Positions 16,580 through 43,358 of a DNA stretch of 64,000 nt are shown in pieces. Position 1 is the stretch's first letter. Each line of letters opens with the position of its first letter. The stretch comes from Ectocarpus siliculosus (taxonomy: Eukaryota; Sar; Phaeophyceae; Ectocarpales; Ectocarpaceae). A program made the translations under genes and the position numbers. The DNA lies in assembly GCA_000310025.1 (NCBI GenBank), contig FN649740.1, positions 2,182,834 to 2,246,833 on the forward strand, in the 5' to 3' direction. The notes beneath the pieces were generated by a model. That model saw only the letters and a program-made list of their open reading frames with translations, did not search any database and was not told where the DNA came from.

Positions 16580-18181
16580 TCAGGTCGTCGAGCACACACT
16601 TCGGGCAGTTCTGTTCCTGTCCCCCCCTACGTGGCTTCTCCCCCCCGCCAGCTCGCCGAGCATCAGTCGTTCCGGGAGTCGCCCGTCCGGCTGCCTTGCC
16701 AGTGCTCCAGCGAACAGTAGGCGTCGTTGTCGGATCGTGGCTTCAACGCTCTGGCATCCGACCCTCTTCAGCGTCTGGGCGTACGAGAGCTGCCGATAGG
16801 TGTCTTTCTTGCGCTTGTACCCGATAACTCGAAGGAGCAGTCGGTGGTGTGTCGCCCGCAGCGTCTGATAGTGGCCGCTGAGTGGTGACCATGTCGTGCA
16901 GCCGAACAGCAGTGCCTCCATCGCCTCCGCGTGGAGGAGGCGGATCTTGAGTCGGAATGGCGCTTTCGGTCTGTCGAAGAGCTCCTGGCCATATCGCCTG
17001 AGGCACGCCCACGCTCCTCTGCTCCTGTAGCTGATCTCCCGGGTGAGGTCGCCATGTTCGTTGACGAGGCCACCGAGGTACCGGAACTCGGTCGTCTGGG
17101 CGTATTTCTGTCCCGCGGCTTCGATAGTCAGTGGTGGAGGAGGCGGGGGGGGCTGTGATGTTGCAGTCGGCTTGTCCTTCGCGCGCATCAGGAGTGTCTC
17201 CGTCTTCTTCTCCGACACCGTTAGCCCGAACTCTCCGAACACCTCAACGATGATGGTCATCATTCTCGCCAGTCCTTCTGCAGACCTCGATACGACGCCG
17301 GCATCATCGGCATACAGCATCCCCCATACTGCCCTCCGTACTCGGTCAAGGGGTGTCTCCTCCGCCCCCCCCGCTTCCGTCTTCCCCTCCTCCAAGTACA
17401 CCAGGCTCCGCAGAACAACATCATCCTCGCTGAATCGGATGACAACGACCTCGAGGACCTCGGCGAAGAAGATGTTGAACAACAGTGGGGATAGCACACA
17501 TCCTTGTCGCACGCCCTGTGTCACGAAGAACCAGTCCGATAGTTCTCCGTCGTCCATGCGCACCCGGGCCCGCATTCCATCGTGGAATTGGCGGATGACT
17601 TTGATCAGCTTCGCGGAAATCCCGGCCCTGGCCAGCACTTTCCATAGCATCTTTCGGTCCACCGAATCATACGCCTTCTTCAAGTCGACGAAGCACATGT
17701 AGAGCGGTATTTTCTTTCTCCGCCCCAGCTCCTGGAGGCGGCGCACGACGAACAACATGTCGACGGTGGATCGCCCGGGTCGAAATCCGCACTGTTCCTC
17801 CGGGAGGATGTTGTTGGCTTCGCAGAAGGCGCTTAGACGGTTGGTGATGATCTTGATGGGGACCTTGCCTACGTGACATAGTAGCGAAATCCCCCTGTAG
17901 ATGTTACAGTTGGACCGGTCACCCTTCTTGTACAGCACCTTGATAGTTGCATCCTTCCACTCTTGCGGAATATCTCCTCCGTTCCACACCTTTACGAGGA
18001 TGGAATAGAGGTGCCCCAGGACGAAGGGTTCGTCGTCATCGATCTTGAGCAACTCGGCAGGGAGGGAGTCATGGCCGGGTGCCTTCCAGTTCTTGAGGCC
18101 TTTCGTTGCCCGTTTCACCTCCTCGAGTTCTGGCACCTCTCCCAACCGTTGAATGTCACGTGTCGCTGGCCGCTGCGTCAC
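16580..18181 (-). pseudogene. LINE reverse transcriptase frame
   Basis: An open frame of about 530 codons holding the RT core. Visible motifs are [24 protein letters not shown], the [13 protein letters not shown] block, [15 protein letters not shown] and the catalytic YADD at about residue 290, followed by a thumb/connection region ending [13 protein letters not shown]. The function would be target-primed reverse transcription of the element's RNA. The frame has no natural ATG: it starts directly after an in-frame TGA at a GTG codon and is offset from the upstream linker frame, which implies an indel. A proline-rich insert follows the YADD block. No RNase H motif was seen. Confidence 0.9.
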
Positions 18182-35222: not shown

Positions 35223-35429
35223 CTTTGCCTTTTGTCAGGACGAATGATGATGCGCGATGGATTCCACCACAATCTCTGCCTCTGTTTTGCGCAAATTGTT
35301 TTGTAGCGAGATCACGAGGTGTTGTTGCGAGCCCCACCAAGGGCTCTCTCCCCAACTATCCCTCTTCTACAGAGATTCTTCAACGTTGCCAGGGAAGCGC
35401 CAAGGAGGGGGGGGGGGGGGGGGGGGGGG

Positions 35430-35529
35430 NNNNNNNNNNNNNNNNNNNNNNNNNNNNNNNNNNNNNNNNNNNNNNNNNNNNNNNNNNNNNNNNNNNNNNN
35501 NNNNNNNNNNNNNNNNNNNNNNNNNNNNN
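35430..35529. other. Assembly gap (100 N)
   Basis: Exactly 100 N, flanked on both sides by long G runs (about 24 G to the left, about 15 G to the right). Its true length is unknown. Confidence 0.99.
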
Positions 35530-36103
35530 GGGGGGGGGGGGGGGTGCTCCCGGCGCCACGTGGTTGTGCTAAGGCGCCGGATCTTTTTCTTGAGTGCTGC
35601 CGCCGTCGTTGTTGTTGGTGTGATCTTGAGTGTGTTGCTGAATTGTGATGCACAGACCTGCGGGACTAGCTGCAGACAGTGTGCCACGGCTTGTTTTCTC
35701 TCTCGTGTTTTGGAGAAGTTCGAGCGTATCCGAGTGTATTGTGTCCTGTCGCCCACTGAAGTAGGGAATGTTGTCCGTTTTCAAGGGACTACTGCTGTAT
35801 ACAAAACAGAACCGAAAAAAATGTTACCAAACGGACTTTTGGCAGAAAATATGATATGGTGCTACCGCCATCCTCTCATCAACTAGTGGTTTGTTACTCT
35901 TCGTCATTTTCATGTCGACAATGTCGAGTATGTGTTGAAACACCTGGCTTGAAACCCCTGATCCCCCGTCGGATCCATACTTCATAACTACGGAGGTGTT
36001 CGTTCTTAAATAAAAAAATTGAAGGCACACTGGGTTCTTAAAATCGCGAAACGGTGGGACCATTCCTGGAACCGTTTGTTTGTAGAGAGTTACGTGATTG
36101 GAC

Positions 36104-38586: not shown

Positions 38587-41500
38587 TTAGGCCGTAGGGC
38601 GGCACTGCGAAGCGGTGGTACGGTCGGGAGGCAAAAAGAAAGGTACACGGGAGGGAAAGAGGGTGACTTCTGTCAGTGAGGCCTTGTGGGAGGAGGCAGG
38701 CATTCGCATGACAGGCGATCCCAGGCAAAAGACCCAACCGCTTGGCCAATGACCCGCAAGAGCGAGCACAGTAGGCAACATCATCTTCCTGCGCACGTTG
38801 GCCAATAACGTGAACGCACACCTCAAACAACAACACGACGTCACTCAACAGCAGCAGTCGCTTCGAATGGCAAGACACCCTACTGTACATCAGCAACCAC
38901 CGGCGCACACACAAAATTTCTGATTCATGACGAGAGGGCCCGTCCACTATAGCAGCCTCTTCGATTGACACCCTAGCCCTTTTTCACAAAAGCCACACCC
39001 AAAGAACATTTTCTGAATTGATGGATGACCAGGGTCCGGTCCGCTCAGCGCGCCGCGTACCTGTGAGTACCAGTCATTGTTGGCGACGCACTCGTAGCCC
39101 TCCATGCAGCAGGTCGAACCCTCCCAGTTGCCACCGCCGCATTGCCCCCATGCTTCGGCGCACCCGTCGGACACGGGCGTGGTCGGCTCGGGCTCGGGCT
39201 CGGAAAAAGGCGTTGCCGGCGTGGGCAAGTCCATGGACGGCATGATCCTGTAGAGGTCGAACGCGTTTTCACCGCCACAGGTCTCTCCCTGTGTTGTGGT
39301 AGAGGTACACGGGAGACGAGGGCAGCGGCGGGTGTGAGAAAGGGAGAGTTCACAACAAAGACCGGTCGGTGTATGCATGCGCGCAACAATGGAACGACAA
39401 GTGAGGGACGAGTTTTTCTTGTGTGATTTGGGATTTTGATCAATCGGTCCTTCAGCGGCAAAACACGGGTGTGTGTGATTGGGGCATGTCAGTTTCACAT
39501 GGGACAATTTTCTCTACGGTATATTTTGTCGTTGTTTGTCACCTCGTCTCCCCGGCAGGCCTTGTCGCACATCGCCGTTCCGTGGCGTTCGTAGTCCAAG
39601 TCCTCGTCGGCCGAGCAGAAGCACTCGAAGGCGTACTGGGTGGCCATGTACGCGGCGCCGATCTCGGAGCAGTATTCGTAGCAGAACTGAGAGTTTGAGG
39701 GAACAGCGAGGAAGGGCAAAGGCATCGAGCGAGCGAAAGCACTGCAAGTCAACACGACAAAATTCCATGAGCGGTCGCGTGTGTGGCAGTGCGGAGTGCA
39801 CACTGACAAAACATGCAACAGCGACGTCTTCGAAATGTTTTTGTCTGGCATGTCGTGTTCTTCTCACGCCTACACTTACCACAAAATGAAACACGATATT
39901 TTCTCCCATCCCACAGCTGATTCTGTAGAAGATATCTACTCTGTCGCAAGAGAAAACATAAAAAAATAGAAACATCTACAGAAAGATCTCATGCGCGCGC
40001 CGTTTCTTCGTAGACAAAAAAGTTCTCACATCCGCGGTCATCAGGTCCGAGTCCAGCTTGTCTCCCAAAATCCGGTCGTCCTGCCTGTCCGTGTAGCAGC
40101 CGACGTACTCGTACATCTCCATGCCACCGTCAGTGCTATCCTCGTCGTCCTCTTCGTCCACGGGGTCGGGCATCGGGGCGTCCGCCGGTGTTGAGCCATC
40201 TGGGAGGCAGCGAGGACGGAGGGTGGGTGGGTGATTAGATGAGAGGCAGCGGTAGCATTTAGCGGGAAGGAACGGCAACAGGAAGGGCGTGTAGGCCGCC
40301 ACGGTGACACGGGCCATTTTTTCTTCCAAGGGTGAGTAGCGCGAATGATGCTAGAAATAGTCACGGCGGTAGGTGGCGCTTCCCCTTAGAGACGGCGGAC
40401 GAGCATCAAGTCCCAGGTATTCATGACGAGAACACCATTCTTCTCTTCTGTTCTCACCGCATGTCTTTTGAGCAGCTGCATACACCCCGCCCAACGAAGT
40501 AAGTACACCGTTCTTCTCTTCCGTTCTCACCGCATGTCTTCTGAGCAGCCAGCTACACCCCGCTCAACGAAGTGAGAACACCGTTCTTCCTCTTATGTTC
40601 TCACCGGAGGTCATGCTGAAGTCGGAGCAGGCCCAGAACTCTTCCGGGTACTGTCCCCGCGTTCCGCACACGTAGCGGTCGAGCTCAATCCAGTCCCACT
40701 TGTTCGGGGCGCAGGAGCTAGGCCACGAGGTCGGGTTGAACTCCTCGTACCCGATGTGCTTGCACGTGTTGCCGGTGTCTATTGTTCATGGACGCAAGAG
40801 AACCGGGGCACCGGGGGGGGGGGGGGGGGGAGCGTCAGCTGCAGGTAGACGCGGATACATTTCATGCGTGAGTGTATATGCATGTGTGCTCTTCGATGGC
40901 AAGAGTTAATTCATTTTGCTCAAGAACGATATCGTTCTTCGGAAAGATTTTCGACAAATAGTTCCCGACGACGCCGCTATTTTTGGCACTGACGCTCTTT
41001 GTCGCTGCGGAGAAATCGAGCTTTGAAAATCAGTCGAGGGGGTGTGGTATCTTACGTCACCTACGATATTCACCTACGATATTCATCACTGCTGGTCGGA
41101 ACGCGAAGCAGGACGGCGCCCATATTTTTCAAGAAGAAACACTCTTGACTCACAGTACACCATCTGAAGGATGCAGTGCTCGCACTCGATGTCCGGGAGC
41201 ACGTAGCGCATCTTGATGTTGTAGCCCTCGATGCTGTTGCTGCTCTGCTCGGTCTCCTCCTCGCGGCACTCCGGGTCCACGTAGTAACGTCCCGGGTAAT
41301 TGGGGTCGATCGGGCTGGCGTCCCCGTCGTCGTCGGCGCGCGTGAGGGGGTGCATGTTGAAGCACTCCTGGGTGGGCACGCCGTCCGGGTCATCCATGTC
41401 GTCCGTGTTGCAAACGAAGAACTCGCAGTGCCCCTGCACGCGAACAAGACAAAAAATAAACCAAGGGGAGGGGTTTTGGGAGGTGGGTGGGTGAGTGGGT

Positions 41501-42921
41501 GGATTTGTTTGGTTGGGTGGGCAAAACTCGTACAATATCTTTGCTTCGCGGATTGGGGGAGGGAAAAGGGTGTTAATGTTGTGTGCAGCAGGAGCTGTGT
41601 AGTGCCCGCCGGGGGTTACAGAGTTCCAATGTTTGGATACGGATCCTTGGAACGTCCAACGTGTGGCTGGCAGTGGCACTGCAGCATAATTGCAGACCTC
41701 CAACACGCAAAATGCAGACCATAATATTTCAACGATCTTCCTGCTGCTGCTGCTGTCAAGCGTGGAGTGGGCACTCTTTACTCACCCAGTGGTAGGCGTT
41801 CATGACGATGTCCATCTCGAGCACTTGTCCGCTCGTGAAGGAATCGAGTGGATCCCAGTTGATGTTCGCGGTGCTGTAGACGTTGGTGCCTTCATCGGCG
41901 TTCTGCGAGAAAAAAACAAAAGATACCAGACGAGGCAGACGCAGAGGAAGAGTAAGTGTAAATGTCAGACATATCATGTTTGCACTTGTCGAATATTCTC
42001 GTGCCTCGCTGTGAAGCAATAGCAGTCGAAACATGACTTCACATGCCTCCTACAGCAATAGTGACGTTTTGGACCGCCGTTCTGGAAGGCGGACCCACGC
42101 AGAACCAACGACGCGGATGGTGTGTCATCTGCAATCCGAAAATAATATACATACGCCGATTGGATTGCGTGGTCCGAACAAGTAACGGTCAACGTTACAC
42201 GAGTACTGTACGTGTTCATCAGGTTGGGGATTTCCCAGCCTCATGGGAACGCAGCAGCAACATTCACTCTGTGTTCCTCGCACCATCACCACGACTTGTC
42301 GAACTAACTGTTGGCGCCTTTGGTTCGTTCGCCACGAGGGCGCCTCTTCCAAAAAGAGACCACACGTACAATTTGTTGTACTGTAGTCCACACGAAATTT
42401 TGCACCTAAAAAATCGCAGAAAAATCAAGCCTACCACATGCATCAACCAACGGTCTCTCTCTCTCCCTCTCTCCTCAAGCAAGGTGCCTCGCTGTCACAG
42501 CAGGAGACACCAAACAGCAGGTTCAGCCTGATGCACAGCAGCAGCAGCTGCAGTGTCTCTTGTCTCCCCCATCACAAAACAGTCGACACCGACGTACGCA
42601 CCTGTTCCGGGTCGCCACACACGCCGTGCCTCTTCGCTATCTCGTTCGTCTCGAGGTAGTTCCCGTTGTCCGCGAACTCGCCGAAGTAGAGGGGGAACTC
42701 CTCCCCGCCGCCGTACGCGTCCAGGGTGGCGCTGTCCACGTTGTCGTAGGCTCTCTGCTTCACGTACTTGGGCCCGCGAGCGTTGTAGCAGTGGGGGCAG
42801 AACTCGACTTCCGGATCGTCCCTGTTGCGTCAAAAGAAGGTTCGCGGAAGCAAGGGTCAGGTGTGGCGACCGAGATAAAAAGGGTTGTTAGATCCTCTGC
42901 TCCAAAGTTGCAACTCAGCGG

Positions 42922-42962
<41 letters not shown>

Positions 42963-43358
42963 GTTCACAGTACTCTCAAAACCCGGGCTTTGGGGGCCTC
43001 TCACATGATATGCGTCCAGGTGGGCTAGCGAACGAGAGAGGAGAGCGAGCGAGCGAGCGAGAAAGTGAGAGAGACAGAACAGCTGGGGCCGGACATACAT
43101 CCACAGCAGCAGCAGTAATGATACTGCTGTACTACTGCTGCCACTGCCTTCTACATGTACCAGTGTACACTAGCCCACATAACCGTTGGCCCCAGAGAAC
43201 ACGCTCTCGTTGTCAAGTCAGCGGGTATGCTCTCACCATGCTTTGAAGTCAATTCCACGCGATAGCTGCCTGGACATCGGATACTTCTGCATGATGTGGG
43301 CAAAGGACACTTGCGCGAATCCGGCCGCGAGGGCAGCGATGGCACCAAGACGAGTCAT
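38587..43358 (-). CDS. Secreted LPMO (AA15/AA10-like) with WSC and CBM1 domains
   Basis: Predicted copper-dependent oxidative cleavage of a wall polysaccharide such as chitin or cellulose. Exons: 43358-43237, 42821-42602, 41902-41786, 41433-41154, 40778-40605, 40199-40030, 39686-39543, 39288-39061, 38604-38587; all phases agree; 490 residues. A 20-residue signal peptide ends ...SFA, leaving His21 as mature residue 1 (HIMQKYPMSR), the hallmark of LPMOs. NAYHWGHCEFFVC gives the second brace histidine (about 152). CEHCILQMVYYTGN and EEFWACSDF match the LPMO C-terminal core. After an acidic linker (to about 325) comes a WSC domain (YVGCYTDR; QYAFECFCS; ETCGGENAFDLY; about 330-425), then a Pro/Glu linker and a CBM1 (WGQCGGGNWEGSTCC...NDWYSQC, about 455-487). 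The final Cys lies on the 18-nt last exon. Subfamily is my inference. Confidence 0.88.
40429..40605. repeat. 72-bp tandem repeats overlapping a splice donor
   Basis: Copies at 40429-40500 and 40501-40573 and a partial at 40574-40605, each carrying GTTCTCACC, which is GGTGAGAAC on the coding strand. The third (partial) copy includes the actual donor of LPMO exon 5; the other two place identical GTGAGAAC donors inside the intron. Confidence 0.85.
40915..41075 (-). mobile_element. Inverted-repeat element M2, partial copy in LPMO intron 4
   Basis: GAGAAATCGAGCTTTGAAAATC followed by GGGGGTGTGGTATCTTACGTC matches one arm and part of the interior of the element at 45187-45406. The second arm is absent or unrecognisable. 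A perfect 18-bp palindrome, AAGAACGATATCGTTCTT, lies at 40922-40939. Confidence 0.6.
42924..42961. repeat. (GCA)n trinucleotide run
   Basis: About 12 consecutive CAG/GCA units in LPMO intron 1. Not coding in the model. Confidence 0.9.

Follow-up and report, generated by a model that had tools for sequence, protein, structure and literature searches.

The window analysed here is a stretch of 64,000 nucleotides from the brown alga Ectocarpus siliculosus, and its minus strand carries, from position 43358 to 38587, a gene whose product joins a lytic polysaccharide monooxygenase (LPMO) module to a WSC and a CBM1 module. The analysis confirmed that this three-module gene is real and that all its elements lie at the positions listed below; the coordinates and motifs in a preliminary description of the same DNA were correct. 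The gene has nine exons, whose spliced product of 490 amino acids contains no internal stops. All eight introns begin with GT and end with AG, the phases are compatible at every junction, and the start codon in exon 1 is the first ATG of its open frame.

Exon 1, 43237..43358, minus strand: predicted signal peptide (residues 1-20) and His21 as mature N-terminus, with the first ATG of the frame.
Exon 2, 42602..42821, minus strand: LPMO catalytic domain; borders matched by four of the five paralogue queries covering it.
Exon 3, 41786..41902, minus strand: LPMO catalytic domain, ending in YHW; His152 is aligned to His91 of the structure 5msz.
Exon 4, 41154..41433, minus strand: LPMO catalytic domain, with GHCEFF at its start and CILQMVY at its end; borders found with seven of seven queries.
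Exon 5, 40605..40778, minus strand: end of the LPMO domain, with EEFWACSD; Phe294 stands against the axial Tyr184 of 5msz in a weak alignment of 14 residues.
Exon 6, 40030..40199, minus strand: acidic Pro-rich linker and beginning of WSC; borders matched by the C70 and C11 queries.
Exon 7, 39543..39686, minus strand: middle of WSC; borders matched by the C70 and C11 queries.
Exon 8, 39061..39288, minus strand: end of WSC, Pro/Glu/Thr linker and CBM1 (residues 455-483); both borders matched by the C11 query and the start by the C70 query.
Exon 9, 38587..38604, minus strand: last Cys of CBM1, RPTA and the stop; the weakest exon, based on its acceptor and a comparison with C3 genes by eye.

The model was checked with a custom spliced protein-to-DNA aligner. 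On its own DNA the window protein returned the same exons with a score of 2603 (a self-match), while the wrong strand scored 48 and ten of ten base-shuffled copies scored 36-45. As a cross-check, the aligner was run on the window with seven queries taken from six other genes. Exon 4 and the start of exon 5 were unchanged with all seven; exon 2 was recovered by four of the five queries covering it, the fifth, a virus-associated copy described below, putting its start elsewhere. The end of exon 5 was recovered by three of the seven, the other four, which have no WSC, extending beyond it. Exon 3 started 3 bases earlier with the partial queries C70 and C11_3.158, at these queries' own ends. With C11 as query, exons 6, 7 and 8 came out exactly as in the model; with C70 this was so for exons 6 and 7 and the start of exon 8. 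Since the host paralogue models were built with the window protein as template, this agreement of exons is supportive and not independent proof. Exon 9, whose 18 bases encode CRPTA and the stop, was recovered by none of the seven queries in spliced alignment to the window; its support is one good acceptor, and in the C3 genes compared by eye "CRP" begins the exon after the same CBM1 junction.

All three modules proposed by the preliminary description matched Pfam models above their curated cut-offs: LPMO_10 at residues 24-300 (E=3.2e-13), WSC (PF01822) at residues 336-415 (E=2.9e-14, 53.5 bits, the full model, 1-82 of 82) and CBM_1 (PF00734) at residues 455-483 (E=9.6e-11, 41.8 bits, the full model, 1-29 of 29). 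The WSC module also matches the solved chain 7pz2 (E=8.8e-10). By eye, the CBM1 is close to 6q8m and retains WGQCGG and NDWYSQC, conserved residues that we take to be its cellulose face. Searches of the Protein Data Bank (PDB) matched the catalytic module to the AA15 enzyme 5msz with E=1.4e-6 as a single sequence and 3.4e-11 with a profile of six rows. Because 5msz was the only LPMO chain matched, the module is assigned by sequence to family AA15. AA10, the other family suggested for comparison, was rejected: no AA10 chain occurred among the 16 distinct PDB matches of the single sequence (E up to 1), or in the profile search, which gave one match in all at E up to 0.1. Signal cleavage is predicted between MTRLGAIAALAAGFAQVSFA and H; His21, directly after VSFA, is the expected first residue of the mature protein, in agreement with the N-terminal His proposed earlier. 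As far as could be tested, the family gives no sign of a cleavage site that would leave this His unexposed: among 15 models, the seven that reach the expected N-terminal His (window, C11_2.192, C226, three C3 genes and the virus copy) all have a small residue (A, G or S) directly before it, as read from the sequence. The second His recognised earlier, in YHWGH, is His152, which aligns to His91 of 5msz; in that enzyme, TdAA15A, copper is held by His1 and His91 and the axial residue is Tyr184 (PMC5823890).

To place the gene among its relatives, the genome (189 Mb, 492 contigs) was searched with the window protein, which gave 90 matches, WSC-only and CBM1 rows included. Grouping by eye yielded at least 18 AA15 loci, on C15 (the window), C16, C11 (three), C226, C70, C3 (five), C25, C75 and C456 (four); the exons at C11:3148383-3149463 may form a nineteenth gene or be the beginning of C11_3.140. 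With the CBM_1 model 23 matches were obtained (E up to 0.1), each above cut-off, which were grouped by eye into 13 places, and at every one of the 13 (23 of 23 matches) AA15 exons lie upstream on the same strand. Thus a reading as a single gene was rejected: what the preliminary description had seen as one gene is real and is one of at least 18 AA15 loci. WSC matches number at least 133; this number, the genome size and an integrated giant virus would suit a brown alga. The order AA15, WSC, CBM1 was found in the window, in C70 (LPMO_10, WSC and CBM_1 in one gene) and probably at C11 2.18-2.19 Mb, where the AA15 linker and the WSC are almost 8 kb apart, the interval containing repeats and short open stretches rich in Cys; the AA15 and WSC exons there are probably a single gene. 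Within this interval (L053, C11:2184001-2190213), a small Cys-rich open stretch beginning REVCSNGFPGIQSGDSCC occurs twice, together with PTPAPVD linkers. At C456:908708-953173 there are four consecutive diverged loci with AA15-like and WSC exons, at which the CBM_1 genome search (E up to 0.1) gave no match. One of them was assembled; WSC scored, LPMO_10 did not at E 0.01, and its AA15 call comes from exon similarity. The C75 locus, close to the end of a contig, is a fragment whose axial motif has Leu, and the first exon of the C3_5.998 model, which stops short of the His, is probably spurious.

Introns in the catalytic domain fall at alignment columns 46, 125, 165, 265 and 330 with phases 2, 0, 0, 1 and 1. 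The full set is common to the window gene, C226, C11_2.192 and three of the C3 genes (in one, the first exon is doubtful); in a fourth C3 gene the first intron is off by one column, and the fifth C3 model has no exon 1. The models of C70, C11_3.158, C11_3.140 and C25, which are partial, have in part the same introns over the range they cover. Extra introns inside the domain were found in C70 and C25 (one each), and C456d has two others and a shifted end. The closest paralogue of the window gene, C11_2.192, is 75% identical over 300 codons, with 0.56 synonymous (dS) and 0.18 nonsynonymous (dN) substitutions per site (dN/dS 0.33). In the predicted coding sequences, differences between copies are rarer at nonsynonymous than at synonymous sites (dN/dS 0.17-0.52 in all eight pairs chosen, the two with the virus copy standing at high dS, 1.5-1.8). 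The tree was built from 14 of 15 catalytic domains, several of them partial, with an arbitrary root and with C75 (64 residues) excluded for length; it joined the window and C11 genes (97/93), with C226 and C70 next (85/85). Outside this genome, no relatives were obtained with the virus copy as query, nor with the family alignment A1 among 19 viral-contig and 17 genome-contig stretches.

We consider the window gene to be probably a host nuclear gene for a secreted AA15 LPMO that would remodel the alga's own wall by acting on its cellulose. Signal cleavage would expose His21, which together with His152 may hold the copper; the CBM1 would dock the enzyme on crystalline cellulose and the WSC module might bind a second wall glycan. 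Oxidative nicking of cellulose chains could then loosen or remodel the wall, perhaps during growth or the release of reproductive cells. Cellulose as a shared target is indicated by the position of all 23 CBM1 matches behind AA15 exons. Wall remodelling, as put forward in the preliminary description, stands in so far as it is compatible with the modules; as a function it is something we infer. Two observations weigh against it. In assays of an oomycete AA15 with cellulose and with chitin, the reported products were those of chitin (PMC8393829), so an AA15 domain need not act on cellulose. At the axial position, Phe294 aligns to Tyr184 of 5msz, in a stretch worth only 2.1 bits. The profile search of the genome gave no match for the glycoside hydrolase families GH9, GH5 and GH18, a search that misses intron-split genes and was positive in 2, 6 and 6, respectively, of 14 control genomes (all prokaryotes by the names shown); GH7 likewise gave no match, with 0 of the 14 controls positive. 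These absences mean little, since the LPMO_10 search itself recovered the intronless copy alone and none of the AA15 genes that are split by introns; that of GH9 and GH5 counts weakly for cellulose-directed remodelling. Still more tentative, and in our judgement rather unlikely, is a wider proposal in which oxidation is the main means of loosening cellulose in brown algae: some 18 secreted AA15s, owners of every CBM1 found, would replace hydrolytic cellulases, some of them held to the non-cellulosic wall by WSC, and a giant virus of algae would carry its own CBM1-bearing AA15 to breach the same wall.

An unlikely alternative is a role in defence or surface hygiene, the enzyme cutting cellulose or chitin of epiphytes, oomycetes and fungi, or its oxidised fragments and H2O2 acting as a signal. 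In its favour, AA15 enzymes are able to act on chitin (PMC8393829, PMC5823890), and the family has at least 18 loci, an expansion of the kind often seen in defence genes. CBM1, however, is a cellulose module, and no GH18 match was found in the genome, a weak argument given the intron-split genes missed. Equally doubtful is a substrate other than cellulose: CBM1 and WSC would anchor the protein to the composite wall, and the target of the AA15 domain would be another beta-glucan or a mixed polymer. The WSC in the middle of the protein suggests a second ligand and the axial Phe, weakly aligned, would fit, but the constant position of CBM1 behind AA15 exons (23 of 23) again speaks for cellulose.

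The intronless copy on C16 raises the question of a viral connection. It is a reading frame at C16:4493631-4494740 (L033 4631-5740) of 369 amino acids, with LPMO_10 (7.5e-10) and CBM_1 (5.2e-5). The one capsid match to nucleocytoplasmic large DNA viruses (NCLDV) found in the genome, at C16:4438430, is 55 kb away. Ten open reading frames were scanned near the copy, nine of them between copy and capsid; four of the ten matched above cut-off, to a Cas12f1-like TNB domain, ankyrin, SET and Erv1/Alr. The copy seems to be part of a giant virus integrated in the genome, and its closeness to giant-virus genes suggests that the virus, too, turns such an enzyme on the wall. Integrated phaeoviruses of this type are described for Ectocarpus in PMC13236599, whose main text does not contain the terms monooxygenase and LPMO; both are likewise absent from the main text of the review PMC12993054, and PMC5823890 mentions AA15 in viruses. 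That the whole family came from a giant virus, with the C16 copy near the donor and introns gained later in the host, is improbable. The missing introns, the capsid and the intervening ankyrin, SET, Erv1/Alr and TnpB-type matches would fit; yet the unrooted tree puts the virus copy, on a long branch, with the C3 and C25 host genes (96/92), the intron positions common to several host copies suggest that the family is old in the host, and capture of a host gene by the virus is equally likely. Last, the WSC and CBM1 exons could belong to a neighbouring gene, exon 6 being of low complexity and the model a prediction from DNA, but this is very improbable, as phases fit at all junctions, C70 has the three domains in the same order and returns the borders of exons 6 and 7, and C11 2.18-2.19 Mb probably repeats the order; as far as could be tested, there is no sign of the separate gene that would have overturned the preliminary description, and WSC and CBM1 are very likely part of the window gene.

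Other reading frames were seen around the virus copy. Adjoining it are an SNase-like frame and a thaumatin-family frame (L033 5795-6280 and 6339-7517). Two adjacent frames at L033 469-2989 have beta-helix-type matches below cut-off, the second with a Pro/Ser/Arg repeat at its start and F5/8 type C domains. The frame with the Cas12f1-like TNB match, at L034 6507-9182 in the virus-like stretch, encodes 892 amino acids and is perhaps of TnpB/Fanzor type. In the window itself, a reverse transcriptase frame (RVT_1, E=1.7e-33) on the minus strand at 16583-18181 marks a retroelement 20 kb from the AA15 gene, and at about 35251-35883 an open frame enters a run of X, where the window seems to contain an assembly gap.

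To our knowledge, cellulose remodelling in brown algae is poorly understood, and the presence of every CBM1 found behind an AA15 yields a short list of testable candidates for it. The CBM1 matches would also correct a statement in a 2012 paper (PMC3532174) that searches of Ectocarpus siliculosus yielded no CBM1 sequences and that brown algae are devoid of them. AA15 has been noted in Phaeophyceae and other algae, as have AA15-CBM1 fusions (PMC5823890), and WSC on some AA15 (PMC8615602); judged by titles and the beginnings of abstracts, no publication was found with AA15, WSC and CBM1 together, which is not proof of absence. The window protein resembles TdAA15A of Thermobia domestica (5msz) in the position of the brace His and in motifs of the types C..CVLQ...TGN and EE(Y/F)..CAD, whereas the T. 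domestica AA15 sequences consist of the catalytic domain only, with axial Tyr184 (PMC5823890), and the window protein has a Phe aligned to the axial position, WSC and CBM1. Oomycete proteins of Aphanomyces hypogyna and Saprolegnia (PMC8393829) share with it an AA15 followed by a C-terminal CBM1; WSC, present in the window protein, is not mentioned in the main text of that paper. Conversely, the AA15 with WSC in PMC8615602 shares AA15 and PF01822, and CBM1 is not mentioned in that passage. The virus copy on C16 also has AA15 followed by CBM1, with a catalytic domain 42% identical to that of the window protein, but it has neither introns nor WSC and groups with the C3 and C25 genes. The window gene thus encodes a known kind of enzyme in an uncommon combination of modules, and the family pattern, in which all CBM1 found lie behind AA15, holds more interest than the gene by itself.

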